This document shows positions 9,152 through 36,300 of a DNA stretch of 64,000 nt, in pieces. The translations under genes and the position numbers were made by a program. The notes beneath the pieces were generated by a model. That model had not been told where the DNA came from. It was given only the letters and a program-made list of their open reading frames with translations, and searched no databases. The stretch comes from Tridacna crocea (lineage: Eukaryota > Mollusca > Bivalvia > Cardiida > Cardiidae). The stretch is taken from NCBI GenBank assembly GCA_943736015.1, contig OX031065.1:37772427-37836426 (forward strand), read 5' to 3'. Position 1 is the stretch's first letter. Each line of letters begins with the position of its first letter.

Positions 9152-9310
9152 CCTGGACCCCAAAATAAGAAGAAGCAGATGACAGTTCTTTCCATCACAA
9201 AGCACTTGACAAAGGAAGCCAAAAAGAAAGAAGAAAAGAAAACAGCTCAAAAGCAGAAAGAACCAGATCTAGTTCCGGAAAAACTAAAGAAATTTGCAGA
9301 ATTTTACAAG
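9152..9310 (+). CDS. NSUN2-like exon 1 of model (N-terminal basic segment)
   Basis: Acceptor TTTACAG, donor AAG|GTAAGT, 53 codons, phase 0 to 0. It is Lys/Glu-rich and ends EKLKKFAEFYK, matching the position of the KLFEHYYQ stretch of NSUN2. The acceptor implies an upstream exon; the first internal Met is at 9179. Confidence 0.75.
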
Positions 9311-12300
9311 GTAAGTCGGGCCAGTTCAGACTGGGCCGACTGCACAAACTTCCTTTTCACAGAGTAGGGCATGGCCTATACCTTAACTCTTTATCACACA
9401 AGAAAATTTTAGACTGGTCCAAATTGAAAGCATTTGCAGACGACAAAAATAAAGGTGACTGAAAAATTAAAATTTGGTATGGGAAGGGTAGAAAACACTG
9501 TGGGAAAAGGAGAAAATGCTGGTTACCAGCATTTTCTCCTTTTTCCCACAAAGTTTTCTAAAGGTTTTTTTCTGAGGGTCGTTAATTTAAAGTCGGGATT
9601 GTGTGATTTAGAGTTTAAAAAAAGTTTCTGACCCTTTATCAAACAATCCCTGGTTTTTATGACCCTGAGAAAGAAGCCTTTTGAAAACATTGTGGGAAAA
9701 GGAGAAAATGCTGGTAACCAGCATTTTCTCCTTTTCCCACAATATTTTCTACCCTGCTGGAAATGAAAATCAATTTTTGAGTTTCATTTAATTTGTCCTC
9801 ACCTCTGCAAGTGCTTTTAAATTGGACAAGGCTAAAATTTTGTTGTTTAGTAATGAGGTAAAAATTATAAACATAGTGGGAGTTAACTCCTTGCCAAACA
9901 ACAAATTTATAGACTGAATGTGACTAAAAAAATCGAAATTCGATTTGGAAAGGGTAGAAAACATTGTGGAAAAAGGAGAAAATGCTGGTTACCAGCATTT
10001 TCTCCTTTTTCCACAATGTTTTCTAAAGGCTTCTTTCTCAGGCACGTCAAAAGTAGGGATTGTGTGATAATGGGTTAATCATTGATCTGCAAGGAATTAT
10101 TCATATGGGGGCAGTTGTCCGTCAGTCCCAGCAATCTTGGGCATTATCAAAATCAGGGGAACAGAGTGAGTTGACTTCTTCCAGACTAAGAAAATACAAA
10201 AAAGCAAAGATTATTTTTAACTGTGAAAAGGACTAATTGAATTTAGGAATTACAACAAGCATTTATCACCTATAGACATTATTGGTTGTACGATCAGGTG
10301 GCAGAGGCGACATGATTTGCCACAGCCTTGAACAAGTTTCCAAGTCCCCTGCCACCTGACCAAACAACAAATTTATCATACTGCAAAGTTTTTCCCTTTC
10401 AAAGCGAAATTTTCCTGTATTATAATCTCACAAATCAAGTATGCTGACGTCACTGGAAACTGATGTCACTAAAACGTGGAGTTTGGTGCATAAATGTGCA
10501 GTCTGGTGATCAATCGACACCGCCATTTTGGATGTTGTGTTGCACATGTAGTGATGTTTAAGGGGCACTCAAAAGCGAAACTCGATTTACGAGGTTTTTG
10601 CCAGGGAACATGATTATATGTTCCCAGCATGTTAACCAATCAGATCATGAGAAATTTCGTCGTAAAAAAAACTAGCAATGTCATGTGTTTGCCACTCTTG
10701 TTTTTGCCTGCATTCAAATGTGTTCATGCACTACCTTACCTCGGTGGTCAGTGACTTATATAAGGGTTTTTCAAAGTTGCCTGCAGCAAGTTTGTTTTAG
10801 GACTTAATGGGGTAAGGATCATTTGCTTTGATTTATCCATCTGCCACGATAATATTGAAAAATTGTGGAAAAATTCAATTCAAATCATATTAATCATCTG
10901 GTAAGGCTGAACTTCACAACTATTAATTTTAACCCTTTACCATACAAGCCCTGGTTTTTACTTGTCTGCAGTAAAAGTCTTTTTAAAACACCTTGGGAAA
11001 AGGAGAAATTGCTCGTAACGAGCAATTTCTCCTTTTCCCAAAGTGTTTTCTACCCTTTTTGAGAACTTTCTGCCATTTTCTCCAAATCTAAATAGCCGTC
11101 TGCAAACATTTTCGGTTCGGAAGAGACCAAAATTTGTCGTTTGGGAAAGGGTTAAGCCATGGTCTGACAAAAAGGAATTTAATGCAGCTCCATAATGTAT
11201 TGTACTAAGCAAGTCATCATGTAATTATGGGTCCATAATTTAAATACTTTTTGTCTAACTCTTTACCAAACAACAAATTTTTGGACTGGACCAAACTCAA
11301 AGCATCTGCAGACTAAAAATTAAATCATAGTAATACAATGACTCTCTGACTTTGATACGGTAGGAAATATTGAGGGAAAAGCATTTTCTTCTTTTCCCAC
11401 AGTGTTTTCCATAGGTTTCTTTCTCAGGGTTGTTAAAAGCTAGAATTATGTGGTACTCCATTGTGTAGAAAATATTCTGGGAAAAGGAGAAAATGCTGGT
11501 TACCAGCATTTTCTCCTTTTCCCACAATGTTTTCCATGGGTTTCTTTCTCAGGGTCGTTTAAAGCTAGGATTGTGTGGTAAAGGGTTAAAAACTGTCTGA
11601 ATAAGATTTACAAGTATCAGAAAGTATCAACCCATGCCAGAGTATCTCAAAGTATCAATCCATGCCAGAGTATCAAAAAGTATCAATCCATACCAGAGTA
11701 TCAAAAAGTATCAACCCATGCCAGAGTATCAAAAAGTATCAACCCATGCCAGAGTATCAAAAAGTATCAACCCATGCCAGAGTATCAAAAAGTATCAGCC
11801 CGTGCCAGAGTATCAAAAAGTATCAATCCATGCCAGAGTATCAAAAAGTATCAACCTATGCCAGCCTACATAGACTCGATATGGTTTACTTGGATTAATA
11901 CTTTTTTGCAGATGCATGAAGTCTCCTTTTTGCAGAGCAGTACTCATAATTATGTTTATACATATACTTATATATCACAGGGGATATCATTAGTACCAGA
12001 AGAAGAATGGAGATTATTCATGAAGGAAAATACTGGAAGGGCAGATCTAACATTCCGGTTTATTGCCAGACATTGGAGATGTCCTTCACATTTGGATACA
12101 GTCCCAGGTATCCCAAGGTAAAAACATGCACAATTAAGCCTTTACTCCATAGATACTCGTTTCTATGCATCGCTTGTAGGAACCTTAGGAAAACATTGTG
12201 GCAAAATCACAATGTTTTCTAGGCTATCAAAAGATTCATTCTTGCTGTTATTTAGGGTCAACTAGAGATACCACAGAAATGCCTTATTGGGTAAAGGGTT

Positions 12301-15300
12301 AAGCTATCCCTTCTGTATTTATTCCTTTACCACACAGCAGATTTTCATACTGGTCTTAAATGAGGAAATTCACAGAGGAAAATTGACACGTTTTCAAAAA
12401 ATGCTACTTTGAATAGGTGGAAAACACTTTGGAAAAAGGAGAAAATGATGGTTACCAGCATTTTCTCCTTTTCCCACAATGTTTTCAAAAGCCTTCTCTC
12501 TCAGGGTCATTAAAAGAAGGGATTGTGTGGTAAAGGGTTAAGTTTCTACCAACAACCCAGAGTTTTAATGACTCTCAGTAAGAAGGCTTTTGAGATCATT
12601 TTGGAAAAAGGAATTGCTGGTAACCAGCGTTTTATACTGTTGGGACAAAAAGGCCTCTTTGCCTGTTTCAGCAGATTTCTTTTCCCCCATGAAAGTTTTT
12701 GGTTGGTGTATAAATGGTATATAAGTTAGAGGCTTATTGTTTTCAAGATGTAAGGTGCATGTATCAATTTTTGTTCAATTTAATCCATTACCACACAATC
12801 CCTAATTTTGACGACCCTGAGAAGAAGCATTTAGAAAACATGGTGGGAAAAGAAGAAAATGCTGGTAACCAGCATTTTCTCCTTTTACCACAATGGTTTC
12901 ACTCTTCACAAATCAAATTTCAAATTTGCAGTCACTTTTATTTTGTCGTCTGCAAATGCTTTTGATTTTGACAAGACTAAAATATTATCGTTTGGTTATG
13001 AGCCCTCTGAAACTTTACCTCATAATCACACAAACCTATAGAGTTTATTTCATCAGCTTGTGGTTAATATGGGGAAATATTTGCCGAAAAAGGGAAAGGT
13101 ATGTGAAAAAAACGAGTGCCATAAGGCACAAGTTATTTTTGCTGACCTTTCCCTTTTCAGGCAAATATTTCCCCATATTAACCATAAGCTGATGAAATAA
13201 ATTATGTATCATCTGATTATTTTGTCAACGAATGCCACTTTTAAAACTAGTGATCTCAAGTCAATAAACAAGATTTTCGGTAGGAGGAAATTATTCACTG
13301 TGGCAGGGAAATTAATCCCCCCAGCTTAAATTACGTCATTTCTTTACCCATAAAATTTCTTAAAATAGACACATGAAATATAACATAACTTTTTCCAACA
13401 CTGAGAAAAAGGGAAGAGGAGGAAATGGTGATAACTTTAATGATTTCTACTCTTTCCAAAACAGATTTCAATTTGAGAGTCACATTTACGTTTTCCTCTA
13501 CAAATGCTTCAGTTTTGATATGTCTAAAATTTTGTGGTTTGATGGAGAGTTAGAATGGCTGAGATTGTTTTTGTTTCAGTCAAACAGATGTTATTATAGA
13601 CTACATGAGAAAAAAGTTCGGAGAGACCATAAACAAAATGGTGGCAAATAATGTGCAGTTGTCCCTCTCAGCACTTCCATGGTAAGCTATAATTATGTTA
13701 CTCTGTCCTTTAATTATATTTCTACCACTGAGAAGTCATTGAAAACTGACAGGAGCCTTTGGCAAGTCTTCAGTTGAGCTGAGATCAAGTAACTGTAACC
13801 TATGCAATGTATCTAATGATGATGTGCTGGTATATAAAATAAAAAGATGTGTTAAATAGAGGATAATCACCTGGTTATTTTTGATATGAAAAATATCTCA
13901 CGAGGATGCGTTGTTAGGCGTTGAAAAAACAAGTGCACAGTACAAGTTTTTTTTAACACCTTATGACGCATCCGAGTGAGATATTTTTCATATAAAAAAA
14001 TAACCTTTTGATTATTCTATTTATCATATACCTTATTAACATTATCATTTTTAATTTTCGTTTGAAAGTCAAAATCTGTACTTTGGATAGAGAGAAGAAA
14101 TCAGGGACATAGTGCGGATGAATACATACTTTAAAAGAACGAAACGGCAGGAAGTGAAAGTGAAAGTTGATATCGTCACTAGTGATGATATCAAAATTTA
14201 TTACACTGGGAAATTCCAGGATTTCACTGCTAGGTATACAATAAAACTAACTATCAAACAGTGCCTCTGTACTTATTACATAGTTTAATGATGTAGATGT
14301 GAGACTTGTGTCATCTACAAGGAGTTGACCATGTAAGTGTTCTATATTCCTGAACCTTTCGATAGCTATAAAGATAAAATGTAAACATTCATTAATAGAG
14401 TCATGCTCTGGCAAAAAGAAGCTTAATTCTTTACCAAAGGACAAAATTTTAGACCCTTCCGAATTGAAAGCATTTGCAGACAACAAATGAATAAAAAATT
14501 GGAATTTGACCTTAGAAGAATAGAAAACATAGTGGGAAAAGGAGAAAATGCTGGTTACCAGCATTTTTCTCCTTTTCCCACAATGTTTTCAAAAGTCTCA
14601 TGACCTAGGGTCGTTTAAACTCATGATTGAGTGGTAAAGGGTTAAAGAGGTGATTTTTATGTTCAAAGACTGAGCATATCTTTAGGTTTCAGAAACTTTA
14701 CACAATAGCCCTTAATCCTTTACCAAACAATCCTGACTTTTAACAAAACAGGGAAATGTCCTATTGTAAATATTGTGGGAAAAGGAGAATATGGTTGTCA
14801 CTATTATTTCCTTCTTTTTTCTTGATTTCAACCCTTTTAAATACAATTTAAAGCATTTGAGCCATACCTAATTTGTTGTCTGCAAATGCACTGGATTTGG
14901 ACACATCTAAAGTTTTTTTGTTTGGTAAAGAGTTGAACTTCCGAATAATAAGGTGAACTTCTTTTTCAATGTTGATTTTACCTGAATATGTGATCTGATC
15001 ACATGTCAGACACTGCAGATCTATTGTTAAGGTAGTAGACCCCTAACACCTCTAGTGCTGAATTGCATAAAGTTTTCTTGAAAGTTGATAAATACAGATT
15101 TATACAGGTACAATACTTTTGCACATTTTTTATGGACCAGAAATTTCTTTATGCCTATCTTGAAATTATTTGTAGATACTTTTGTTAGTTATCTTTGTAA
15201 TGAAAATATAGTGGTTTTAGATTTATAAATGATAATTCTAGAAAAGACAGAAAGGGAAAAGTGGCTTGGTTAAAGCAGTACAATAACACTCTTTTTTAAT

Positions 15301-18300
15301 CATAGCTTATTTTGTAGGATGATATTGTGGAAATAGCTTTTTTCTATTAAGGGTCTACTACGTTAAATTGCTGAGTTTCAGACTGCATATTAATAGCAGA
15401 CTGACTTTGGTTTACTATATGGCACAAAATTACGCCACATAGTTCATTTAACTCTTAACCAAATGACAATTTTAAAGACTGGTCCAAATTGAAAGCATTT
15501 GTAGATGAAAAAATGAATGTGACCAGAAAAATCGAAATTTGATTTGGGAATGGTAGAAAACATTGTGGAAAAAGGAGAAAATGCTGGTTACCAGCATTTT
15601 CTCCTTTTCCCACAATGTTTTCAAAAGGATTTTACCTCAGGGTCGTCATAAGTCATCATTGTGTGGAAAAGGGTTAAAGGTCCATCTATATTTTTTTTTC
15701 AGGTACCCAAATGATTATGGTTGGACAATGAACATTGATCATGGTGATATGGGGAAATATCTGGGACTGAAAGATTTCTACTTTTTCTTGAATTCAGAAA
15801 AAACAGAGGTAACCAAATACCACTTACACGTAACAGTGGTAGAGAAGATAATATGTAAATTTTTGAAGAAGAGTCTTCTTTTTTTCTTATCAGGTCACCT
15901 GTTTTAAAATATCTTGGAAAGCAGCAGCAGTGTGTTATTACAAGCATTAGTTCCTTTTCCCACAGTGTTTTCAGAAGGTGTCTGTTGGAGAGACATGTAA
16001 AGCAGCAACAATATATAAATAGCCTATATAACCATTAACTCTTTATCACACAATCCCAAGTAAGGGCAACACAGAAGAAGAGGGCTTTTGAAAACATTGT
16101 GAGAAAAACAATAAATGCTGATAACCAGCATTTTCTCCTTTTTCCAGGGTGTTTTATACCTTTCCAAAGACGAATGTCAGCTTTTGAGTCGCATTTGATT
16201 TGTAGCCTTAACCCTTTCCCAAGCAAGCCCTGGTTTGTACGTGTCTGGAGTAAAAGTCCTTGGAAAACACTGTGGGAAAAGGAGAAATTGCTCGTAATGA
16301 GCAATTTCTCCTTTTCCCACAGTGCTTTTTACCCTTTTTGAGAACTTTCTGCCATTTTCTCATAATATGAAATTGTCATCTACAAACTCTATCAGTTTGG
16401 AAGAGTCCAAAATTTGTTGTTTGGGAAAGGGTTAAATGCCTAAAATCTAGTTAACTCTTTACCACATAAGAAAATTTTAGACTGGTCCAAATTGAAAGCA
16501 TTTGCAGACAACAAAATAAAGGTGACTGAAAAAATGAAATTTGTTCTGGGAAGGGTAGAAAACACTGTGGGAAAAGGAGAAAATGCTGGTTACCAGCATT
16601 TTCTCCTTTTCCCACAGTGTTTTCAAAAGGCTTCTTTCTCAGGGGCATCAAAAGTAGGGATTGTGTGGTAATGGGTTAAGTCTGAAATTTTGTATTTTGG
16701 AGAAGGTTCAATCATTAATCACAGTTTTAAACTTATAAATGTTGATACATTCTAGTCTTATAGGATGTCCTGTTTGATTTTGTTTTTAGTTCAGCTGTTT
16801 TTCCAGGAAAACATAGAGGGACTTCTAGCATGGCTTTGTCATCTGTGTCATCATGCTACAACTGTCATTTATTGATATCTCTGTCATTGCCATAGATATT
16901 TATCCTAGTCTGACTAGGTCTAAACTTTCAGAAGGCATAACAGGACAAACAGGGCATGTAACTATCAATATATTTTTTGACACAGTAAGCCTGGCCTTGT
17001 TACCTCACCACAAGGTTCAAACAATTACCACACAATCCCTACTTTTGACACCCCTGAGAAAGAAGCCTTTAGAAAACATTGTGGGAAAAGGAGAAAATGC
17101 TGGTAACCATCATTTTCTCCTTTTCCCCACAATGTTTTCTACCCTTTATAAAACAAATTTCAAATTTTCAGTCACTTTATTGTGTCGTCTGCAAATGCTT
17201 ACGATTTGGATAAGCCTGAAATATTTTCGTTTGGTAATGAGTTAATATCTGACCAGCTTAACTCTTTACCAAATGACAAAATTTTGGACCTATCCAAATT
17301 GAAAGCATTTGCAGATGACGGAATAAAGATGATTGAAAAATCGAATCTTGACTTAAGAAGAGTAGAAAACATTGTGGGAAAAGAAGAAAGTGCTGGTAAC
17401 CAGCATTTTCTCCTTTTCCCACAATGTTTTCAGAAGGCTTCTTCCTCTGGGTGGTAAAAACCAGGGATTGTTTGGGAAAGGATTAAAAAAACTTGTATTT
17501 GATGTACCTTGTTATCAAATATCTTATGTATAGTTCACAGTTCAGAGGTTAGAAGCCTGGAGCATGCTGCCACCCTTATTACTGAAGATTCAGCCCCATC
17601 ATAAAGTGTTAGATCTGTGTGCCTCCCCAGGGTTTATGGCTGGACAGATTTCTCAGATCATGCATTCTGATCCAAACTCAACCACCGGTAAGCAACCACA
17701 AGCATTTGTAGGCTTCTGTATTTGAAGGCTGTAGAAATCTTTATCCTGCCTATCATTTGGGCAGTTTTGGGCAGCTCTCCCCTACCTCTTTCCCTGCCCC
17801 CCCCCCCCCCCCAAAAAAAAAAACACACACACACAATTAAGTAACATAGAATTATTTTTCACTGTACTCTTACGGACAATTTACGCCAAGATCTTTCATC
17901 TCAGATTTGTTGTCTGGTCTTAGACAAACATTGTCCAGTTTCTTTTCTTAACATTTTTTTAGTTTGACAGCATTGTAAGTATAATATCAGGGCCTTTATA
18001 TACTGATTGAAAATGGCAAATTAAACATTAACTCATTAGCAAACAACAATATCCTAGAATTGTCCAAATTGAAAGCATTTGCATACGACAAAATAAAAGT
18101 AACGGAAAATTTGAAATTTGTTTTGTGAAGGGTAGAAAACATTGTTGGAAAAGTAGAAAATACTGATTACCAGCATTTTCTCCTTTCTTTCTCAGGGTCG
18201 TCAAAAGTAGGGAATGTGTGGTAATGGGTTAACGAAACTTGTATTGGAGAACAGTTACTTTGGAAAGAAAAGTATATTTCAAGATATCATAGAATGTATT

Positions 18301-21300
18301 TTGATCTTAACCAAAATGAAATACCCTTTGCATTTCCCCATCACAAACTGTTTGTTCAACAATCATTCTGTTTCTTTTATTTTAAAGGTGTGCTGGTTCT
18401 GAACAACTTGTGGAAGTTCAATGATAAAATGGAGTATAAATGGTGCCAAGGAACAAAGGCTATTTTCATAAACAATAATGCTAAATCTTTCCCTGACCTG
18501 TTCATCTCAGAAACAGTAGGTTGATACATTTATTTGATTTATTGTCTTACTTTTTTAGAATTTGAATGAGTGAGGTTGACTACCACATAAAGATTCGAGC
18601 ATTGGCCAGTGTCCATATCAGATGGACAAGCCAACAAATTTGGTTTATCTATCCACTTGGCTTGACAAAGCATTGTATAGTTGATATACAGATCAAATAC
18701 TGACTGCTTATTTGCTGATTTATCAGAACCATGGTCTTAGGAAAAGGTTGAAAAAATTGTTTGAAAAAGGAGAAAATACTGGTTACCAGCATTTTCTGTT
18801 TATCCCATTACAACTCAATCCCTACTTTTGACGCCCCTGAGAAAGAAGCCATGAGAAAACATTGTGGGAAAAGGAGAAAATGCTGGTTACCAGCATTTTC
18901 TCCTTTTCCCACAATGTTTTCTACCCTTTCCAAATCTATTTTCAATTTTTTATTCACATTTATTTTGTTGTCTGCAAATGCTTTCAAATTGGACAAGTCC
19001 ACAATTTTGTCAAATGGTAAAGAGTTAACCTGACATATTTTAAAAGATCATGTACATCATGTATTATGAAACTTAGAATGGTGTAGTGAGGATCAACTCT
19101 CTATTTGTTAGAGAAATTTTGCACTTGTCCTTTCTATTAAACAGCTTTTAGCAGATGAAAGATAAAGTTGTAATGATAGAACTTGTTTTTGAAAGTGTAT
19201 TTGTTTTTTATTAGGAAAAAGAGAAAATACTGATCACTGGCTTTTTGTACCACACTATTTTGAGGCTTGACAACCCCTATACAGAATGCTTTTAACATTA
19301 TGAGAAAGGGAGAAAATACTGGTATCGAGCATTTTTCCCTCTCTCACATTGTCTTCGGCTCAGTCAATGACAAGATCCATTTTTGAGCCATTTTTATACG
19401 CCCAAAGGGTCGTATTATGTTATACCCCCGGTCATCCGTCCGTCCGTCCGTTAGCAATTTCTTGTGTGCGCAACTCCTCCTACAGTTTTCATTGGAATTA
19501 TTTGAAACTTGCCACAATGAATTTACATGATGTCTAGTTGTGCACTTGGGTCTTAGAATTTTGATCGCTGTTTCCGTTCCAAAATTATCTGCTCTTGATT
19601 TCTGAAATAACCTACTTTTCACTTTGAATTTTTGTTCAGGCCATAACTTCCATACCATAAAAGGTATTAAATTGAAACTACATACACTGATAGAACACAT
19701 TATGGAGAAGTGCAGTGCACATGAAACATAACTCTGCCACTTTTATTTTTTGAGTTATTGCCCTTTGTTAATTTTCAGTTTGAATTTTTGTCCAAGCCAT
19801 AACTTCATAACTATAAAAGCTAATAACTTTCAACTTCATACACTGATAGAACACATTATGGAGAAGTGCAGTGCACATAAACCATAACTCTGCCACTTTT
19901 AGTTTTTGAGTTACAGCCCTTTCTTAATTTTCAGTTTGAATTTTTGTCCAGGCCATAACTTCTAAACTATAAAAGCTATTAACTGTGAACTTCATACATT
20001 GATAGATAACATTGTGGAGAAGTGCATCGCACATGAACCATAACTCTGCCACTTTTATTTTTTGAGTTATTGCCCTTTGTTAATTTTCAGTTTGAATTTT
20101 TGTCCAGGCCATAACTACCAAACTATAAAAGCTAATACCTTGCAACCTAACATAGTGATAGAACACTTAATGGAGAAGTGCAATGCACATGAACCATAAC
20201 TCTGCGACCTTTATTTTTTTACTTATTGCCTTTTGTTAATTTCCAGTTTGAATTTTTGTCCAGGCCATAACTTCCAAACTATAAAAGCTAATAACTTGCA
20301 ACTTCATACACCGATAGAACACATTATGGAGAAGTGCAGTGCACATGAACCATAACTCTGCGACTTTTATTTTTTTAGTTATTGCCCTTTGTTAATTTTT
20401 TAGTTTGAATTTTTGTCCAGGCCATAATTCCCAAACTTTAAAACCTATCATCTTGAAACTTCAAAGACTTATAGAACACATTATAAAGAAGTGCACTGCA
20501 AAGAACCATAACTCTGCCATCCTTCTTTTTTAGTTATTGCCCTTTGTTAGTTTTCTCTTTGAATTTTCGTCTGGGCCATAATTTCTAAAATATAAAAGCT
20601 ATGATCTTGAACCTTTCAAAACTAATAGAACACCTTGTGGAGAACAGCAATTCACAAAATTTGTAACTGTGCCACCCTTCTTTTTTTAGCTATTGCCCTT
20701 TAATATTTTTCACATATCATGGGGATTAACTACTCTTCATTCATGGCTTTTCCGTCATTTCAACTCATTTCACTGACAAGCCCCTTCGGGCGTATATGTG
20801 CCGCTTTGAGAAGCTCTTGTTTATTTGTAGCCTGCCAATGTTTTTGTCAATTTGTAAAGAGTTTAGTTGTCCTCTTCAGGATCCTAAAGTCACTATATTG
20901 TTTAGTGAAAGTTGATATGACTTAAACTGTCTTGCATTCATTGACTTATGCAGATATTGTGCTTATTATATGGCAAAGAAAGCCAGTATCACAATATAAG
21001 CATGCCCTAATGGGTACAATAGCAGAATAGGAACCAGTGAGAATAGTAATCTTAGGGTGAAAATTGAAGTCGAGATTTCTGAAAATTAAAGCAACAATAT
21101 CTACACAAAACACCTCAATATATCAAGCAGATATTAATTCTTTACCAAACAACCACATTTTAAACTTTTCCAAACTGACATTATTTGCACACCACAGATT
21201 TAATTTAACTGAAATTATGGAAGCATATTTGAAAGGGTTGAAAACACTGTGGAAATGGAGACAGCACTGTTTAATACCAGCATCCCCCCCATAATACTAG

Positions 21301-24300
21301 TATATTCTGAAGGCTGTCCCTAGAACACAAGATTGCATAGATGAAGGTTAATAGAAAAATTTTTAGGAAACATTTAATGTATTTATGGCATATAATTGAA
21401 ACCGTCATAAATGTGGACAAGAATTTGAGCATTTCCATCTTCCACACAAGAGGATAAAGTTACTCTGAAGGGAATATTATTTTTGAAAGGATGGTTCAGT
21501 TGCAAATTGTACTAATTGAAATGTTTTTGTTTCATATTTTAAGTAATACCTATTTTATAATATTTTCTCAACAGAAAGAAGTTTTGAAATATGACAGAGT
21601 TTTATGTGATGTCAAGTGCAGGTAAGCACCATTTTGTGTTTGAATTTTCTTTTTTCATAATGTCATTGTAGAATTTTAAAGATTATTTTATGTTTTCATA
21701 TGTTTGTGTAAATTAACACTTAACAATACAATCTCAAGTTTTAAAGATCCTTTTAACCCATCACCACATAATCCCTACTTTTGACGACCCCGAGAAAGAT
21801 GCCTTTGGAAACCATTGTGGGAAAAGGAGAAAATGCTGGTAACCAGCGTTTTCTTCTTTTCCCAGAAAGTTTTCTACCCTTCACTAAACAAATTTCAAAT
21901 TTTCAGTCACTTATTTTGTCATCTGCAAATGCTTTCAATTCGGACTAACCTAAATTTTAGATGTTTGGTAATGAGTTAAGTCTCTTGGAAAGCCATAGGA
22001 AAAGGTAAAAATGATCGTATCAGCATTTTCTCTATTTCCCAGATGTCTCATACCTTTTCCAAGACAAATTTGATCATTTCAGTTTTTTTTTATTTGTAGT
22101 CTGTGATTGCTTTCAATTATGGCAAGTTTTTAATTTTGTAGTTTGTTAATTAGTTACTAAACAATGTAATTTTGGGCTAGTCCAAATCAAAAGCATTTTC
22201 AGACGACAAAATAAAAATGACTGAAAATTTGAAATTTGTTTTGTGAAGACTGGAAAACACTGTGGGAAAAGGAGAAAATGCCAGTTATCAGTATTTTCTC
22301 CTTTTCCGACAATGTTTTGTTAAAGGCTGCTTTCTCAGGGTCGTCAGAAGTAGAGATTGTGTGGTAATGGGTTAAAGACTTAAACTTTATATTTTCGATG
22401 TAAGGGATAACTGTTTATACATCCAGGGTTAAAAAAATCCACTCGCCACTTGACCTAACTAGTGAAAATTTGGTACAGAAAGTGAGAGAATGTTTGTGAC
22501 CAGCATTTGGTCCTATTCCCAAAATCCTTGCTACCCTTTCAAGTACACATTTCATTTTCTAGTAATGTTTACTATGTTTTGGTAAAACAACATTAATTTT
22601 GAATATTTTAACCCATTACCACACAATCCCTACTTTTGATGACCCTGAGAAAGAAGCCTTTAGAAAGCACTGCGGTAAAAGGAGAAAATGCTGGCAATTA
22701 GCATTTTCTCCTTTTTCCACAATGTTTTCTACCCTTCACAGAACAAATTTCGAATTTTCAGTCACTTTTGTTTTGTCGACCGCAAATGCTTTCGATTTGG
22801 ACAAGCCGAAAATTTTGTCATTTGGTAATGACTTAATAATGCCTTCATAGCTTGTAAAGGTTATTGGTAGTAAGAGCAGTAACTGATATAGTAAGGTTAA
22901 CTCTTACCAGACAACAAAGTTTGACATGAAACCATTACCACACAGTCCCTGCTTTTGACGACCCTGAGAAAGAAGTCTTCAGAAAACATTGCAGGAAAAG
23001 GAGAAAATGCTGGTAACCAGCAAATGAGTTAAACCAAAGTGTTAGCGTATGTAGGTAATGAAAGTTGCTCAATTGATCATTTTTTTTTTTTCTAATTTTT
23101 AAAGGAGTTGAAAACATAGGAAAAGCAGAAAATGCTGGTTGCAAGCATCGTCTCCTTTTCCCACAAAGTTTTCAAATATGTCATCTTTCTTACAGTAGTT
23201 AAAAGTTTGAACTTTGTGGTGAAGGGTCATATGTTATTTGTGGTGCTAGTGTCCCTTTCATTTTGTTTTGCCCAGACCTAGTAGCTCAGTTTGTAACCTA
23301 CAGGATTTCAGAACATAAAATCAGTGTTTTGAGTACCCACCTAGGCCATTTTCTACTCAAGGATTGGTGATAGTCATTGCAACAGAATTCATTTTTCTCT
23401 CACTGCTGAATATAGTTTTAATGATGGTTATGTTGGAATTCAGCCAGAGTCTTTGGAAGAATATTGTGCATATTTTGATATAAAAAAAACTTCTGGAAAG
23501 CATGAATAGGTGCACTAGCCACAGCGATATACATATATCTGAAGTAATGTTGAAAAACAGCGTTTAACACCACACACTCAATCAATAATTCAAATCTTTC
23601 ATCTTTTTAGTTCTGATGGCACAATGAGGAAGCATCCTGGTCTTCAGGATCACTGGAACAGTAATACAGCACTAGAGTATCATGGGTAGGCTTTCTATAG
23701 TGTTAACTTCCTGTAAAGGAAAGGAACTTTGTTTTGATTTTTTTTATGCTATGAAATGTTCCAGTTTCTTTCTTAGATTAAGTAAGACTTGCAGCTACAA
23801 AAGTAAGCGTTTGTAGACAACAAGTTAGATGTTACCCAAACATAAGGTCGGTCTTGTGCTTGTAATAGTTTTAAAGACTAGAAGGGAAGGGGGTGGGGGG
23901 AATGAACCAGCATTTTCTCCCGTTTCAAGAATAATTTCTAAAACCTTTTTCTTCAGGGTCTTTAACCCTTTATTACCAAAGGACCCTGGGGTAGGAAAGC
24001 TTTTGAAAACATTGTGGGCAATGGAGAGTATGTTTGTAGCCTGTGTTTTCTCTGAATGATTTTTACCCTTCTGAAAATCAAGTTTTAATTTATGATTTTG
24101 TTGTCTTCATTTTTTTTTTCAAACTTTGTTAGGAGAAGGGAATCGATTGGACTAGTCTCAACTTGTAGTGCTTGGTAAGGTGCTGAGCAACAGCAAATGT
24201 ACGGAGTATGGTTGATTAAAAAAATATATATATTGTTTGGTTAAGCATGTATGAATGTAAAGAAAAGAATATCAAACTTATATCTACTTTCAGTACAAAA

Positions 24301-27300
24301 ATTGAACATGTACCCATGATTCAACATACTTAACCCTTAACCCATAAGGCATTTCTGTGGTATCTCTACTTGACCCTAAATAGCAGCAAGGATGAAGCTG
24401 TTTCTTATGTGTATATGACACCTTTTGAATAGAAGCATAGAAAACATTGTGGCAAAAGGTGAAATTGCTCGTCACGAGCAATTTCACCTTTTGCCACAAT
24501 GTTTTCCGAACACTCCTACAAGCAATGCTTAGAAATGAGTATCTATGGAGTAAAGGGTTAATACATGGTACAACAAAACTATACTGCCACCACTTGCTTT
24601 ACAGGGATCAGCTAGCTGTACTTAGAAGAGGTATGGAGCTGGTTACACAGGGAGGCATGGTCTTGTACTGTACCACATCCCTAAATCCCATAGAGAATGA
24701 AGCTGTTGTTATGGCAATGCTGAAAGAGGCTAGTGGTCAGTAAAACGCAGGCTTTTGTCAGAGCCCATCTATAAAACAAAATCCCCTAATTGTTTATCCA
24801 TCAAAGACCATGTTTATGGCTTTGTTTGTAAGATCTTCCATTTAGGTCAGGCAGTCGCATCTTCGCGAGCCAAGGTTACGATCACTAAGTGGATCTTACC
24901 TTGGCTGATTGAGCCTGATTTCGAGATTCCTTTGATGCGCCCTCTATTGGATGCTGGTTTATTACCCCACTTTACATCATATTTCTGAAAGCAAATGAGA
25001 TATCGTTTTACAAACCGCTTAGGAAAACACATGAAGCGATACGCAGACATCCATGTGGATTTCCATGTTTACCTTCTATATGAAAGGTAGTTACCTTGTT
25101 CTATTTTTATCAAAGATGAAATACTACGAGCGATTTCATTCATTGCAGTTAGAGCTGGCTGGTTCCAATGAAAAAGCGTATCGGGGGTAATGTTAAAATC
25201 AAGCTTGATCCACCAAAGGTGGGGTAACATAGTGAATCATCAGCCTTGGCTTGCGAAGATGAGGCAGTCGGGAAACTTGCTTTGTTTGTCCTTCAAAATT
25301 GCAGACATACACTGTGCAATAGACTCTTATCCTGCTAAATGACTCAAACTTTCAAACCAATAGTCAGCAACCAGAGTTAGCAGTTTTTATCTTATTTCTC
25401 CTGAGTAAGATATCTCATTGTCTGACAGTGAAGATCCGAGATCAGACTCTACATTCTGTCTATAAAAGGTCAGTGAGTTACGCTAGCAGCCTAAGGGTTA
25501 ACCCATTACCACACAATCCCTACTTTTGACGCCCTTGTAAAAGAAGCCTATAGAAAACATTGTGGGAAAAGGAGAAAATGTTGGTTACCAGCATTTTCTC
25601 CTTTTCCCACAGTGTTTTCTACCCTTCATTAAAAAAAAATCAAATTTTTAGTCACTTTTATTATGTCGTCTGCAAATGCTTTTAATGTGGACCAGTCTAA
25701 AATATTGTCATTTGGTAAAGAGTTAACTCTACTATATCACACAGCAGCAAAAATTTAGACTGCTTCAAATTGAAAGATTGTGTATACAACAAAATCGTGT
25801 GCAAAATAAATTTGCCGGGGTTTGCCTCAGAAAGGGGAGAACACATTTTGGAAAAGGGAGGAAATGTTGGTTATCAGCATTTTGTACTTTTCCCACATTG
25901 CTTTCAAAAGTGTTCTTTTTCATTGTTTAAGCTGAAGACTGTTTGGGAAAAAAGTTAAATATAACTTTGCCATAGGCATTCGTGAATATTGCATCCATAT
26001 GTGTATCCAAAAGGAAGTAATTACCATGTTTACTGCTGATGCAAAGAATCAGATTTTCTACTGTATAAATTTCTTAATGCTTTACCACACAACAAAATTT
26101 TAGGCAGGTCCAAATTGAAAGCATTCGCAGACAACAAAATAAAAAAAAACTGAAATTTTGAAATTTGTTTTGTAAAGGGTAGAAAACATTGTGGGAAAAG
26201 GAGAAAATGCTAGTTACCAGCATTTTCTACTTTTCCCATAATGTTTTCTTAAGGCTTCTTTCTAAGGGTCGTCAAAAGTAGGGATTGTGTGGTAATGGGT
26301 TAACTCTGAACAGAACAACATAATTTTAACTCAGCCAAGTTATAAGCACTTGAGGACAACAAAATAAATGTAGGTTAAATGATGATTTCTGTTTCTGATG
26401 GAATAGATTAAGTTGGGGGAAAAGGAGAAATTGCTGGTGACTAGCATTATTTTGCTTTTCCATAATGTTTTCAAAAGTCGTCTTCTTCAATGTTGTTAGA
26501 ACGTTACATTGCGGAAAGGGGTTAACTCTTAACAGACAATTACATTGTATTACATTCATTACCCTGGTTATGTTTGAAAGAGACAAACACAACAATTGTA
26601 AATTCTGTTGTCTGGGACAGAGTACATGTTATTGAACACTAGGGGCCTTTTGTGTGATAAAGTGAACTGGCAGACTGGATTTAACCCATTACCAGACAAC
26701 AATATTTTAGACTGGACCAAATTGAAAGCATTTGCAGACGACAAAATAAAAGTGAATGAAAATTTTAAATTTGTTTTGTGAAGGGTAGAAAACATTGTGG
26801 GAAAAGGAGAAAATGCTGGTTACCAGCATTTTCTCCTTTTCCCACAATGTTTTTAAAAAGTTTTTCTCTCAGGGGCATCAAAAGTAGGGATTGTGTGGTA
26901 ATGGGTTAACCAGTATACTGTCAAAGAACTGCTTTTTAGCTCCACTGGCCGAAGGCCAGCGGGCTAATGTCATGGCCGGTTGTCCGTCGTGCGTGCGTCC
27001 GTCCGTCCGTCCGTGCGTTAACTTTTTCTTTAAACACCTTCTTCTCTGAAACTACCCATCCAATTTTGATGAAACTTTACAGAAATGATCCTGTCAAGGT
27101 CCTCTTCAGAATTTCTTGAAAGAATTTAAATCCTTCAAAAACTCTGGTTGCCATGGCAACAAAACTGAAAAATTTTAAAAATCTTTGAAAATCTTCTTGT
27201 CTGAAACCGTAAGGCCTAGGGCTACCAAATTTTGCATGTAGCTTTATCTAGTGGACCTCTACCAAGTTTCTTCAAATTATAGCCCTGGGGTCAAAATTGG

Positions 27301-30300
27301 CCCCGCCCCGGGGGTCACAAGTTTTACATGGGCTTATTTAGAGAGAACTTTAAAATTCCTCTTCTACCTAGGCATAGGACCTAGGGCTACCAAATTTGGC
27401 ATGTAGTTTTATCTAGTGGACCTCTACCAACATTGTCCAAATTATAGCCCTGGGGTCAAAATTGGCCCCGCCCCGGGGGTAACAAGTTTTACATGGGCTT
27501 ATATAGGGAGAACTTTAAAATTCTTCTTCCACCTAGCCATAGGGCCTAGGACTACCAAATTTGGCATGTAGCTTTATCTAGTGGACCTCTACCAAGGGTG
27601 TCCAAATTATAGCCCTGGGATCAAATTTGGCCCCGCCCCGGGGGGGAACAAATTTTACATGGGCTTATATAGGGAAACTTTAATAATCTACTCGTACCTA
27701 GCTGTAAGGGCTAGGGCTATCAAATTTTGCATGTAACTTCATCTAGGGTGTCTCTATCAAAGGGTGCCCAAATTATAGCCCCGGGGTCAAATTTAGCCCC
27801 GTCACGGGGGGTCACAAGTTTTACATGGGCTTATATAGGGAAACTTTGATAATCTACTCGTACATAGCCATAAGGCCTAGGGCTACCACATTTTGCGTGT
27901 AGCTTTATCTTATGGGCCTCTACCAAGAGGGCCCAAATTTTAACTTTGGGGGTCAAGTTTGACCCCACCCCAGGGGTCACGAGTTTTACATTGGCTTTTA
28001 CAGTGAAAACTTGATAAACCTGTCTCATGGGTCACATATTTTAGAGGGCCTTTTATTGAGCAAACTTGTTTTACAGGGCTTTTTATTGGGCAAGATTAAA
28101 AAATCTTCTTGTTTATAAACACACATTCTAGTTTCATATTGTAGGTCTGGGGTCAAAATTGCCTCCATTCAGGGATCACAAGTTTAAACATGGGCTTCAA
28201 AATATAGTCACTTCAATTTAAACATTAATCAAGGGAAATAACTCTTTTTATGAAAGATAAAGTTTGGTACTATTTACTTCCCTTGATTATCAAACTACTT
28301 TGATACATGATTGTGCTAGACATTAAGTTTTTTGATAGAAAATATTCTGTTTTCAAGGAGTGTGATTCATTTTGATGCTAATAGTTATGCTCACATGAGG
28401 TGAATAATAAATTCAGAGTAAGGTTTCTATCATTTAGCTTATTTTTCCAAGGATTTTACCTTTCATGCTAATAAATTAATCTGCTTGTATTGCCTGACTG
28501 TGTTCATTGTTGTTGAAGGCCCTCTTTTTCATGGTCATGAACACTTCAATTTGTGTGGTAAAGGGTTAAAAAGCCAGTGGAGCGATACAGGGCCATCATG
28601 GCCCTCTTGTTTAATTAGTCAACCTTTAACCAAACTTTTACCAAGGTTTTTAAAACTGAAGGAAGCTCATTTCTTTGTAGGGACAGTCGATTTGGTGGAT
28701 ATCCGAAGACTGATGACAGATTTTAAATTTAGACCAGGAATGAATACATGGAAGGTACCTGTTCATAAATTACCTTATGATTAAAACACATTTTGTACTG
28801 CCTGTGTCTTTTGGTTTTCTTTTTTTGTGTCAGTATGCAGGCCACTGAAGGTATGCAGTAAATGTTTCTATAACTGGTTACATTGATTTCTTATTCAGTG
28901 ATTTGTTATGTGATTTGTTACTTTGATGTTCACATGCAGTTGCTATGAAAGTAAAATAAAAGTCATAGTTTTAATCCTTTACTACTCAATGAGAACTTTT
29001 AACACCCTGGAGGAAAAAGCCTTTTGAAAACACTGAGGGAAAAGGAAAATGCTGGTTTTTCTCTTTTTCCCACAGTGTTTTCTTCACTATCAGGGTCAAA
29101 TTTCATTATTTAAGTTGCATTTAAATTGTTGTCTTCAAATGTTTTAATTTGGTCAAAGTCAAAATTTTATCATCTGGTATAGAGTTAACATGCTATAATC
29201 CTTTAGCAGAAACTTACCTTTACAATTACAGATCAAATTTTATGTTAAATGAATGACCATACAGCTGGTGAAATAGATTTTCTATCATGTTTGATATGTT
29301 AAGTTCATGATATATAGGATCTTTTATACATTCTACTTTCTTAGTTATTGTGATATCTGAAGGAGGAGGTATTTTTATGATTTTTTTCTATAATTCTATT
29401 CCCAGGCATCATTGTTAGGGGCTTACAGAATCATACACTTGTTTTGTCGTCTTTGTCCAAAATTTTCCTATAAAGTGCCTCTTCGTCCCAAACTTCGTTG
29501 TCCTAGTGTCCTTATCTCCTTTGAAATGGAATGAGTTAAAGCTTACTCAGCACTCTATGAAACAAGAAAAATACTAAGAATGTTTGGTTCCTCAAAGAGT
29601 GAACAGAGCTCAGATTTCTCGCAAGTTTTGTCAGAGGAAAATGTCAGCAAAGTAATGCAGTCAGTAACTTGGAGATAATAATTAAGAAAGTTGTTTCACT
29701 TTCACTATTTCATCATATTATTATATACTGGTTAACTTCCATAGATACCTGTCTTTGTCTTTGTTTTTTACTTTAGCTAATGAAAAACTAAAAAGTACAG
29801 GTAGTTTTTATTGATAGTGGTATACATGTAGTTATTTGTGGAAATACACATTGCCAGTATCAGTTTCATAAATGCTACAAAGTCATATTAATTCTTAAAA
29901 GTTGGTTCACATGCATTACATACTTTTGGTCATCTTGCATGCCAGCTCTTGTTTTATGCAAAAGAGTAAATACTTCAGTTCTTAAAAGAAAAACTGACAT
30001 GGCATATCAAATAGACATAGATATTTGACAAGCTCCTACCTAAGCCCTATGTCCCTTCTTGAAAAATCAGCTGTAATTTTGGAGTGAAGCAGACATAAGA
30101 CCAAAATAAGAGGAATATTTTTGGTAAGATTTGAACAGATTTTATTTCTTTCCCTTTGATATGTTTGATAAATAGATATCTTTGTTAATGAATATTGTAT
30201 GAGATTCAAGTTGTGATTTACCAGGGGAAGGTTACCTTTAATGTTTGACTCATTACCAAACGACAAAATTTTAGGTTTGTCCTAGTCAAAAGCATTTGCA

Positions 30301-33300
30301 GACAACAAAACAAAAGTGACCGAATATTTGAAATTTGTTTTGTGAAGGTTAGAAAACATAGTGGGAAAAGGAGAAAATGCTGGTTACCAGCATTTTCTCC
30401 TTTTCCCACAATGGTATCTAAATGCTTCTTTCACAGGTTTGTCAAAATTAGGGATCGTGTGGTAATGGGTTAAGTACAACTTTATGAGTGAATTACTCAG
30501 TGAGTTCATAAGTGCATTTTTCATCTATTTTACTTACATACTTGTTTTTTGGATTGCCTTTGCATTGACATAGAAAAGACATCTTGACCATTATTTTATG
30601 AGCTAATTATCGATCGGACTGATTGACATCTTAATAAGATCTTTAAAAAATTACTTCAAAAAAGGTATGCATTAAACTCAACCAGATCTACTTTTTCTGT
30701 AGGTAATGTCCCAAGAGGGATTCTTCTACCTTAACTATGCTGAGACATCAGATGAGTTTAAGAAGAATTTCCCAGAATCTGTGTTTCCGCCAAAACCTAA
30801 AGAAGCTCTAGCATTCCGCATGGAAAGATGGTATGTTCTAATGCTATCTATTGCAGGAGAGATTTTAGTTCTGTTTGTTCATTGTTGATAGTCTAGATGA
30901 AGATCAGACTGCACTTTATGTGCTTGAATCTGCAGTTTTCAGGGCTTTGGCCAATATAGCCTTAAATTTCTGAAATTAACCCTTTCCCAAACGACAAATT
31001 TTTGACTCTTCCAAACTCAAAGAGTTTGCAGACGACAATTTCAAATTTGATAAAAATGGCAGAAAGTTCTCCAAATGGGTAGAAAACACTGTGGGAAAAG
31101 GAGAAATTGCTCGTTAAGAGCAATTTCTTCTTTTCCCACAATGTTTTCAAAAGACTTGTACTGCAGACACATGAAAAAAAGGGCTTGTTTGGGAAAGGGT
31201 TAAGATTTATTCTACCAAATTGAGGTTTATTTCATTAAACCAAGATAAAGAAGACTTATTGAACAGATTAAGTCTTTACCCTTCATCTTTAGATCAAGAG
31301 CTGATCCCTCATAGATCAGTCAGTAATGAACAGGACTTGAGAACAGAGGGCCGTTGGTACATTCTCTTTCCAAAGATTGATGGTATTCATTGCAACAGAA
31401 TTAATTCCTCTTTCACTGCTGACCATTGTTTTGACAGTTGTCATGTTGGGAAGCAACCAGTAGCTTGTAATGAATCTTGTGGGGATACTGGTAAAAGAAA
31501 TTCGATCAAAGCATAGATAGGTGCTCTGAAATAATGTTGAAAACAGTGTTAAACACCATAAATCAGGCAATCAAAATCTTTAAATAAGTGACACATAGCT
31601 GACTACAGTATATTTCCAATTCTCTATATATTTTGTCTGTGATTTTTTTTTTTTTTGGCTGAAAAAAAAAAAGACTTTGGCCTAGTTTCAGCAATCATAT
31701 TGTACAATATGATATTATCCAGGTAATCTATTTAAACATGAACAAATTTTACTCAAAGGTATCTGTGAATGCAAACATAAACACAACAGGGGTGATCTGT
31801 TTCAAAAAAAGAAGAGGAAAGCAATTCTTTCTCACATGCTATTTGATGGATTATAGAAATTTTTAATGAAGCAAAATTTCAGTTCTAAAGCAAAATGTTT
31901 TTTGACCCAAGAGTACTTATTTCAGTGAAATTAAAAAGTTGCTGAGTCATTGCTTGTTATTCTTTTTATGAAACTGTCCTTTGGCATTTTCATCCCTTTA
32001 CACTTAATCCCAAGTGTTAATGATCCTGAGGAAAAAGGCTTTTGAGAACATTTGGGATAAAGGAGAAAATGCTGGTACCAACATTTTCCCCACAATGCTT
32101 TCTGTCCTTTCCCAAATAAATCTCCGCGTTTAAACCACATTTAATTTATTGTCTGCAAATGCTTTGAATTTGGACAAGTTTTAATTCTTACTGTCACATA
32201 CAGAGTTAGAGCTGTGCTGTAAATGTTAACAATCATTACTGTAGTGATATTGGAACATCAGGACCCGTATTCACCAACCATTCTTAGGAACGTTCTTAGT
32301 CTTATTCTCCATAATTTTCTACATTTGTATGTAACACAACTTCTGATTGGCTAAACCATTCAGTTTAGCCAATCAGAAGTTGTGTTAGTTACAAATTTAG
32401 AAAACCTTGGAGAATAAGACTAAGAATATTCTCAAGAATGGTTGGTGAATACAGACCCACTGCTATTTCCTATTATGTTTTTGTATTACAGTGCAAGAGT
32501 CTTGCCACATGATAATAGTACTTCTGGATTCTTCTGTGCCCTGCTTACAAAGACAAGGGAACTTCCATGGGTTAAAGGTATAATACAAAAATTTCTCTCG
32601 ATTATGTTGGAGGAAAAGGAGTCACTATCCTGTAAAAGGGACTTTAACAAATAAAAAGTATTAATGTTACGCTGAATAATGGAACATACTTATGCTTGTT
32701 GTGACTAAGTGGCTCTTAACCCATTACCACAAAATCCCTACTTTTGATGCCCCCTGAGAAAGACGCCTTTTGAAAACACTGTGGGAAAAGGAGAAAATGC
32801 TGGTAACCAGCATTTTCTCCTTTTCCCACAGTGTTTTCTACCCTTCCCAGAACAAATTTCTATTTTTCAATCACCTTTATGTTGTTGTCTGCAAATGCTT
32901 TCAATTTGGACCAGTCCAAAATTTTCTCGTGTGGTAATGAGTTAAGAATGTTCCTTAGAAAAATACTTTGTCACAGATGGATTTATGTACCATTTCCTAT
33001 TAGTAAAATTGATGGTCAACACCCTGATTGTTCAAACAATACTCAGAACTGGAGAACATTTAGATATCAGTGATATTTGTGAGGTGAGAAGAAAATGCCA
33101 GTTGAGAAAGATACACCTGAAAATTGATATAGATAGTATAGTAAAATTGTGTTAGTAGAAGAAATGGAGATTAACTCATTACCAAATGACAAAATTTTAG
33201 GTTTGTCCAAACCAAAAGTATTTGCAGATGACAAAATCAAAGTGACTGAAAATTTGAAATATGTTTTGTGGAGGGTAGAAAACATTGTGGGAAAAGGAGA

Positions 33301-36300
33301 AAATGATGGTGCCAGCATTTTCTCCTTTTCCCACAATGTTTTCTAAAGGCTTCTTTCTCAGGGTCATCAAAAGTAGGAATTGTGTGGTATTGGATGAAAA
33401 GAGAAAGCTTGGAAAAACTTAACAGAACACAATATATATTGCAACATGATATTCCATCCCCACTGTCTCTGAAAGTTGATATTTCTTTGTTACGTCAAAG
33501 GACAGAATCGTAAATGATTATAATTTTCTAAGCATTTTCTTGATTTGCCTCATTGTTTCTGATATCCCATGTTTTCTTTAGACTGGTTATACTTTACTGA
33601 AAAAAGAGTAAAATGTAAGCTTTTGTAAATTGGTACATTCATGAGGCAGCAGTTTTAATAGCTGTGTGAAAATGGATAGTTTAAAAATATCACAAGAAAT
33701 AAAGCAGGTTGTGATCACTAGAATTTTCTTTTTTTCCCAAAATGCTTTCTATCCTTTCAGAGACAGATCCCATAAGTTGAGCCACATTCTATTTGGCATC
33801 GATGGAAGTCTTAAATGTGGACAAATCTAGATTGTTGATTTTTGTGGTTTTTGTATCGTGACAGTTCTTTTACTTATGATATTGAACAGCTAAACAGCAG
33901 GAGAAAGCAAAAGCAGCACCTAAACCCAAGGAAGAAGAAAAAAAGAAGTATGGTTACGCTCTTCAATTAATGCCACAAGTGGTGCTGCTGGAAGCTGAGT
34001 GGACCACTGAGGTGACAAACAGGTTTCTACAGACCAGGACCAAAGTAGAAAAACAACTTTTTCCTATACCACCACATGTAGTTGACCCAAGGTATACAAA
34101 AAAAGCACATCTAAATCCATCAACATTTATAAATTGTTGAATTTCTGCTTTTACAGTTATTGTAGAGAGCTTTTAATCTTTACTAAACGACAAAATTTTA
34201 GACTTGTCCAAACTGAAAGCCCTTGCAGGTGACAAAATAGATGTGACTCAAAAATGGAAATTTCTTTTGGGAAGGGTAGAAAACATTGTGGGGAAAAGGA
34301 GAAAATGCTGGTTACCAGCATTTTCTCCTTTTCCCACAATGTTTTCAAAAGGCTTCTTTCTCAGGGTCATTAAAAGTCAGGATTGTGTGGTAAAGACTTA
34401 ACATGCAGTGTCTCTTTTTCCTACTACTGATTAGATACTCTAGTAAATGATGTCTATCATCCTGTAAAATTTTTGTCATCAGTATGTATGTGATGTAATT
34501 TTCTTCTATTGAAAGATTTGTCATCTCTATATTTGCTGTATAACTTCTGCTGCAGATAGCTTATGTAAATTTTCAGTACCCACTCCTGATGATTTAACGC
34601 TATACCAGACGACAGAAGTTAAGGTTAGTCCAAATTGAAAGCATTTGCAGACGACAAAGTAAATGTTAAACAAAAATTGAATTTTGACTTTGGAAGGGTT
34701 GAAAACACTGTGGGAAAAGGAGAAAATGCTGGTTACCAGCATTTTTCTCCTTTTCCCACAGTGTTTTCAAAAGCTTTCCTTCTCATGGTCGTTAAAGTCA
34801 GGATTGTGTGGTAAAGAGTTAACCAAATATAAGTAGAACTTTGTTGAGATTTTGCAAATTTGAAATCTATTTGCTAACTTCTCTGTTCATGTAATTTACT
34901 ACAAATATACCAATAAACATTGAATGTCTTGAATTTGCTGACATTTCCATTTGCTAAATGTACCTAATTGATAATTTGCACATTTTTTTCAACACATATA
35001 TATCCACATATACAGTAAAATCTAAAACCACAAATATAGAACCTTTTTGCATTAGTTTTATTTCACACTGTTTTTACTGTTCCAATAGTTTAAACATATT
35101 TATTTTACATCGATTGAGAAACAGGTTCTTACAACTTAATCCAATCTCTCTCAATTCTGCTTCCTGGTAACTACGCTAGTACTCGCACCGAATGTGTGGG
35201 CCTATGAAAAATCCCAAAGTTGACACCCGTTCCCGGGTATCGAACTCAGGACCTAGCTTTATGGACTCCCCATAAAGTGGTCATCACAATTGCAAGTAAA
35301 AATGCAGGTGTATGCTCAAAATCATGACTTAATGTGTAAGTTATGTTAAAGCTTTTATTCATGCACCAATTTGATGCCTTGGGGAAAAAAAGAGTTCATA
35401 TAGATGTTCTTCTTTAACTCTTTACCAAACGACAAAATTTTAGACTGATCCAAACTGAAGGCACTTGCAGACGACAAATTAAACTTAAATCAAAAATTAA
35501 AATTTGTTTCCAGCAGGGTAGAAAACATTGTGGGAAAAGGAGAAAATGCTGGTTACAGCATTTTCTCCTTTTCCCACAATGTTTTCAAAAGGTTCAGGGT
35601 CGTAAAAACCAGGGATTGTTTGGTAAAGAGTTAATCTCGATAATAAGAAAGAATTGACTGCTCCATTTAAACTTATCCTGACCTTTATGCTGAATATATA
35701 AGTAGGCATAAAAATAGATCTCCAACTAATATTGGCAAAGTTAGATATACATGGCAAGCCTTTATTCAACCTTATCCTGGCCTTTATGCTGAATATATAA
35801 GTAGGCCTAAAAATAGATCTCCAACTATTGTTGGGAAAGTTAGATATACACAGTAAGCCTTCATTTAACCTGATCCCTACCTTTATGCTGAATATATAAG
35901 TAGGCATAAAAATAGATCTCCAACTATTATTGGGAAAATTACATATACATGGTAATCAATTTAACCCTGAGCCTGCAAAGCACGACTCAAGCCGCTTTTG
36001 CGGACAGTGTTTATCCAAGATCAGACTGCACAAAACGTGCAGTCTGATCTTGTATATACACTGTCCAATGAAGAGATATATCTCCCGAAAAGAAGACTTT
36101 GAAATTGCAATATTTGCTTTTTGTTACTTTTGACCGGAAAGTTTCAATTAACCTATCTAGTAAGATAAAGATTGATTGGCATAACCCGCATGAAAAAATG
36201 CCGAGACAGACCATTTGGTACATATGTCGAGAAATGCCGAGGGTCAAAATAGAATATAGATTTATGTAAATGATTTTGACCTGGGTCAGCTTAAATGATG

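Follow-up and report, generated by a model that had tools for sequence, protein, structure and literature searches.

A probable retained NSUN2 pseudoenzyme in the bivalve Tridacna crocea, member of an old pair of dead NSUN2 paralogues in heterodont clams

This study concerns a 64-kb stretch of the Tridacna crocea genome (C10:37772427-37836426, hereafter the window) and the NSUN2-like gene that it carries. NSUN2 is a tRNA/mRNA cytosine-C5 methyltransferase; the window gene is very likely a retained NSUN2 pseudoenzyme, one of two such genes forming an old pair in heterodont bivalves, in which it is the alpha member. Judged from the sequences compared below, both the loss of the NSUN nucleophile and the retention of the gene are well supported. 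Rebuilt from the raw sequence, the gene occupies the plus strand from 9152 to 48100 and was modelled with 21 exons (A to U), all 20 introns being GT-AG. It has a single 760-codon reading frame, in which the terminal TGA (48098-48100) is the sole stop; neither a broken frame nor a broken splice site, the marks of a pseudogene, was found. The original prediction had counted 21 in-phase exons without a stop. The open frame and the introns bear this out, but putative exon Q (40204-40245, 14 amino acids) is absent from 13/13 aligned homologues and is probably not constitutive; a model of 20 exons and 746 amino acids is therefore favoured. The first coding exon used, exon A (9152-9310), has an acceptor and an in-frame ATG at 9179. 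The start is not certain, and an additional small exon upstream of exon A is possible.

Pfam detected Methyltr_RsmB-F, Pre-PUA_NSUN2 and PUA_NSUN2 in that order in the window protein, each above its cut-off (PF25376, 26.2 bits for a cut-off of 24; PF25378, 28 bits for a cut-off of 25). The N-terminal domain is encoded by exons B (11981-12117), C (13580-13681) and D (15703-15808), the pre-PUA domain by exon O (38667-38799) and the PUA domain by exon R (40415-40553), with exon S (45606-45645) in the PUA region, exon T (47042-47175) at its end and exon U (48012-48100) encoding the C-terminal tail and the TGA stop. Exons K (30703-30830), N (37211-37306) and P (39974-40066) are further parts of the model. 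The best PDB match was human NSUN2 (E 4.7e-82), homologous over model residues 38-733, and the protein may be expected to fold as NSUN2 still. A fold search (library to April 2026, mostly residues 42-452) did not list the human NSUN2 entries that had been found by sequence.

The catalytic motifs read CASPGFMAGQ, LNNLW, NNNAK, DVKCSSDG and YCTTSLNP, exactly as first described in the original prediction. We take human K190, C271 and C321 to correspond to motifs I, IV and VI, respectively. In motif I (CASPGFMAGQ, exon E, 17546-17687), the Lys of SKT, at the position of human K190, is replaced by Met; in motif VI (YCTTSLNP, exon I, 24605-24735), the nucleophile Cys is replaced by Thr. Motif IV is split between exon G (DVKC, 21575-21621) and exon H (SSDGTMRK, 23611-23685): it is altered as predicted, with P changed to K and G to S next to the Cys, but the Cys itself is kept. 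Exon F (18388-18515) carries LNNLW and NNNAK at motifs II and III, and the NKRCYLMVHQ stretch of canonical NSUN2 has been lost there, with a shortening of the sequence. A protein with these changes should be unable to make the covalent Cys-cytosine adduct. We also rejected the idea that a hidden canonical exon restores the motifs: a six-frame scan of the 64-kb window with eight motif patterns revealed no TCSxNP, PCSGDG, PGSKT or NKRCY, and its lone match was an unrelated FSTC.

The same losses were found in other bivalves. Three protein searches, two of them with profiles, contributed the best 120 of 404, 400 and 509 matches, and our census comprises 222 NSUN2-type sequences from them (221 retrieved proteins plus the window, isoforms included), which is a sample rather than the full set of NSUN2s. 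The nine closest proteins among the matches listed are 40-49% identical to the window protein, and the motif VI Cys is present in 0/9; those with names are bivalve "NSUN2-like" proteins (Mercenaria, Mya). Later profile searches added a Mactra alpha and further beta sequences (see below for the two subfamilies). In the whole census, the motif VI Cys is present in 201/222 sequences and missing from 21, hereafter called dead. The motif I Lys is likewise present in 201/222 and in 0/21 of the dead sequences, where 19 have another residue and two a gap. The dead set includes Mercenaria, Mya, Mactra, Dreissena, Ruditapes and the window; Dreissena, Mya and Mactra, whose lineages were looked up, all belong to the Neoheterodontei. 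For Sinanodonta, Mytilus, three scallops and Solemya, the matches listed contained only canonical NSUN2, their genomes not having been searched for a dead copy. The Cys two residues before the lost motif VI Cys had been regarded as a near-replacement; it occurs in only 2/21 dead sequences, and we rejected it as a replacement nucleophile.

In phylogenetic trees, from which the isoforms P0009 and P0134 were left out, the dead rows formed one bivalve clade with support 100/100 (16 of 37 rows), and did so again with 100/100 after removal of the motif and linker columns (19 of 45 rows). The loss of the nucleophile and of the motif I Lys thus characterises the clade as a whole and does not reflect recent decay. 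This clade splits in two: alpha, with the window, Mercenaria, Mya, Mactra and others, and beta, with Mercenaria, Mactra, Mya, Dreissena, Ruditapes and others. The motif IV Cys distinguishes them, being kept as [KR]C in 11/11 alpha sequences (one an isoform) and replaced by Ser, Thr or Ala in 10/10 beta sequences (isoforms included). The NKRCYxxxHQ stretch is lost in every dead row covering that region. In exon L (PHDNSTSGFF, 32492-32577), D417 is found in 17/17 and N418 in 16/17 dead rows, the canonical residue being Q in 26/26. The Asn at motifs II and III, which the original prediction had listed with the other losses, is present but private to the window: 9/9 other alpha rows keep both Asp. 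Since these losses of the S-adenosylmethionine (SAM) pocket Asp are specific to the window sequence, the predicted inability to bind SAM may not extend to the family.

Both subfamilies were found in Mercenaria, Mya and Mactra. In each of these species the listed contigs of alpha and beta are equally long, and for this reason the two genes probably lie on one chromosome. Nine dead homologues are near-full-length open reading frames on contigs of 2.2-3.2 kb, as would be expected of spliced transcripts. Two other observations concern the diversity of the clade. P0145 (Mya arenaria) is a second, more divergent beta-type sequence of that species (YHRVFLCGTAS, YITRSMNP), which suggests continued duplication within the dead clade; and P0005-P0008 are four close alpha proteins that form a deep alpha branch, with MCAPGFMASH at motif I and KCCADGT at motif IV.

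A canonical-type NSUN2 is also present in the same genome, as a search proposed in the original prediction revealed. We searched the 1.05 Gb assembly (31 contigs) with PF01189 and obtained seven matches. The dead gene of the window was not among them, and the search therefore has no bearing on other dead copies in the genome. One match, L007, lies at C10:23675799, on the same contig and about 14.1 Mb from the window gene. It reads SGDGTMRK and YSTCSLNP, within the stretches SGDGTMRKNPDIW and YSTCSLNPIEDEA; the reading covered three of its exons, which include neither motif I nor the codon for the motif IV Cys. Over 44 residues, L007 is 95% identical to P0016, the protein of a 3.9 kb contig. 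By reading, the four boundaries that can be compared (the acceptor of exon H, the introns H/I and I/J and the donor of exon J, 28681-28754) agree in position and phase between the two genes, which fits duplication at the DNA level and does not fit a retrocopy. Of the other matches, L001-L003 are NOP2-like and L005-L006 NSUN5-like by motif reading.

The coding sequence does not evolve as a decaying one would. On the 37-row tree, the end branch of the window measures 0.58 changes per site, or 432 changes. Neutral simulations with 432 changes yielded a mean of 22.9 stops, and those with 186 changes a mean of 11.7; in both cases 0/500 runs were stop-free. The ratio of nonsynonymous to synonymous substitution rates (dN/dS) between the window gene and the canonical paralogue was 0.36 (NG86) to 0.43 (LWL85) over 94 codons in three exons including motif VI, a value that averages both lineages and for which dS is near saturation. 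On this sequence evidence, neutral decay does not fit the gene. The stem of the dead clade is itself long, about one change per site (1.06 in the 37-row tree, 0.99 in the 45-row tree). Its attachment differed between trees: the 37-row tree grouped the dead clade with the canonical NSUN2 of heteroconchs (81/99), and the 45-row tree without motif columns placed it deeper (83/91). Holding the dead clade with the heteroconch canonicals was not rejected by an approximately unbiased test (p-AU 0.42), and both placements may have been misled by long branches.

The dead clade also has a sequence element of its own, in the linker. Exon M (33890-34091) encodes an EWTTEVT box (codons from 33997), and a box of the EWTTE.T type is present in 20/20 dead sequences reaching the linker and in 0/201 others; the remaining sequence, the Mactra alpha, is truncated and ends before the box. 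Structure models of one alpha and one beta protein both predicted a β-hairpin of which the box is exactly strand 1. Identity between the window protein and the Mercenaria alpha was 45% in the N-terminal domain, 57% in the methyltransferase domain, 47% in the linker and 47% in the PUA region; the corresponding values for the canonical proteins of Ruditapes and Mytilus were 50%, 64%, 11% and 41%. On these alignments, the linker is conserved in the dead clade although it is variable in the canonical pair, and the conserved box points to a gain as well as a loss of function. P0009, P0134 and P0145 were left out of the identity and invariant-column comparisons, and of those of isoelectric point (pI), from which P0121 and the partial sequence P0019 were also omitted. 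The original prediction overlooked both the beta subfamily and this conserved linker element. As separate observations on the canonical linker, a C2H2-type zinc finger pattern occurs in P0017 (Ruditapes) and P0018 (Mactra), 2/222 sequences, and P0016, close to the canonical gene of T. crocea, is without it.

Several other features lie in the window. Downstream of the gene and in opposite orientation, 58452-63397 (minus strand) contains exons of an RNA recognition motif (RRM) splicing-factor gene, which we presume to resemble RBM39. Upstream, also on the minus strand, 1-3263 and 4850-5506 contain long retroelement reading frames (gag-like with a zinc knuckle, and protease/reverse transcriptase-like) and a mariner-like transposase fragment, all named by reading. 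A palindromic hairpin resembling a miniature inverted-repeat transposable element (GGGAAAAGGAGAAAATGCTGGTnACCAGCATTTTCTCCTTTTCCC) is present in 54 paired-arm copies in 64 kb, about one per 1.2 kb (for example 17083-17127, 26799-26843 and 53482-53526), and its core was matched in none of 20 mononucleotide shuffles. Inspection by eye suggests that inverted TTAACYCATTACCA-like ends flank many of the copies.

What might a dead NSUN2 do? A dead copy of this kind is also retained in related clams, which suggests that its role is probably non-enzymatic. Given its anatomy and what is reported of inactive human NSUN2 and NOP2, the alpha protein may bind RNA or act as a scaffold without catalysis, and may have beta or active NSUN2 as a partner. 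The window protein has the same domain order as NSUN2 (PF01189, PF25376, PF25378) and shares its exon boundaries where they were compared; it differs from NSUN2 in having lost the Cys of motif VI, the Lys of motif I and the post-motif II stretch, in the P to K and G to S changes of motif IV, and in the new, predicted EWTTE hairpin. The human NSUN2 mutants K190M, C271A and C321A are termed enzymatic dead; cells re-expressing K190M nevertheless increased their protein synthesis, and the authors propose that K190M shielded unmethylated tRNA by binding it (PMC6594628). Likewise, in a study on human NOP2/NSUN1, a rescue function was supported by the catalytically inactive form (PMC9561284). Natural alpha has changed the same residues as K190M and C321A (motif I Lys, motif VI Cys); however, these are laboratory point mutants, whereas alpha differs at many more positions and retains Cys in motif IV. 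NOP2 resembles it as an NSUN protein with a function independent of catalysis, but NOP2 is enzymatically active and has this function in addition, whereas the window protein has naturally lost catalytic residues. Dead paralogues of RNA methyltransferases are known: METTL14 with METTL3, and TRMT6 with TRMT61A. These are likewise retained beside an active paralogue, but they serve other reactions with other partners, and their partnership is established whereas that of alpha is only proposed.

By such a mechanism, alpha would bind NSUN2-type RNA (tRNA or similar) through the emptied methyltransferase cleft and the PUA domain; once bound, it would shield or present the RNA, or join active NSUN2 or beta as a regulatory subunit; the EWTTE hairpin is a candidate for the surface that makes contact. 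Taken alone, this RNA-binding mechanism falls, in our estimate, somewhat short of an even chance. A number of results weigh against it. The original prediction held that segments outside the motifs had stayed closer to NSUN2, a contrast that failed: among 138 canonical-invariant columns, alpha lost 22/58 in the motif regions and 29/80 elsewhere (Fisher p 0.86), and with p 0.37 for beta and 0.60 for the window we rejected a concentration of residue loss in the active site. As the loss is equal outside the active site, RNA contacts may have been lost too. The PUA region of the window protein is only 17% identical to that of the Mercenaria beta. Beta has an acidic folded part, with a pI of 5.6-6.6 in seven rows; six of these lie below 5.9, the lowest canonical value, and such acidity is less suited to RNA binding. 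The folded part of alpha has a pI of 5.9-7.3, inside the canonical range of 5.9-8.2. In human cells, methylation was required to protect against the formation of tRNA fragments, and K190M did not bring this protection back; its rescue of heavy polysomes under stress was also weaker (PMC6594628), and these findings argue against a simple guard role. Last, the motif IV Cys of alpha and the SAM-pocket Asp of the other alphas may leave room for a different chemistry.

Four alternatives were considered. In the first, a lone pseudoenzyme acts as a guard or competitor on NSUN2 sites (the tRNA variable loop, mRNA), limiting methylation or cleavage. We regard it as possible and hold it tentatively: the methyltransferase and PUA layout is kept in alpha, and the effect on translation described above for dead human NSUN2 is independent of methylation; the acidity of beta and the tRNA fragment pattern that the dead mutant did not restore speak against it. 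The second, which we consider doubtful, is an obligate heteromer: alpha would pair with beta or active NSUN2, and the dead member would position the RNA, as METTL14 does with METTL3 and TRMT6 with TRMT61A. It agrees with the presence of both subfamilies, probably on one chromosome, in three genera and with the derived linker box that they share, save for the truncated Mactra alpha, but no alpha for Dreissena or Ruditapes was among the matches listed. A more specific form of the idea, namely a heterodont two-part pseudo-methyltransferase of alpha and beta, joined by the new hairpin and recognising NSUN2-type RNA without modifying it, would constitute a 5-methylcytosine (m5C) antagonist or reader system that other animals are not known to have; we think this rather unlikely. 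The third alternative is an altered enzyme, in which the motif IV Cys together with Thr or Ser at motif VI would support another SAM-dependent or nucleophilic chemistry. The Cys conserved throughout alpha and the Asp kept at motifs II and III by its other members would suit such an enzyme, but the motif I Lys and NKRCYxxxHQ are lost in every dead row covering them, beta has lost the motif IV Cys in all its sequences, the window has lost the pocket Asp, and the equivalent human mutants are termed dead; we judge it improbable. Finally, a decaying pseudogene, a relaxed duplicate that chance has left intact, or misassembly at the motif codons could draw on the fast evolution of the clade and the window, and on the window being the only alpha row that also lost the motif II/III Asp, but is very hard to reconcile with 746 codons free of stops, a dN/dS of about 0.36-0.43, the same losses in 20 other sequences, five named bivalve genera among them, and a newly conserved linker.

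A retained, probably non-enzymatic NSUN2 remains the reading we prefer. Among the titles and abstracts listed by a literature search that mostly did not reach subscription journals, none dealt with NSUN2 paralogues in bivalves or with dead bivalve NSUN2, which is weak evidence of absence. There is a warning here for annotators: several named dead members are entered in public records under methyltransferase names, such as the Mactra P0010 ("tRNA (cytosine(34)-C(5))-methyltransferase") and the Mercenaria P0002 ("RNA cytosine-C(5)-methyltransferase NSUN2-like"), and the nucleophile is present in none. The usual view of NSUN2 is by way of its m5C marks, even though some effects persist in human cells with dead mutants. 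If dead NSUN2 has been retained for long in a natural clade, next to a canonical copy, evolution would have parted binding from catalysis, and the clade would reveal which surfaces of the protein matter when it does not methylate.

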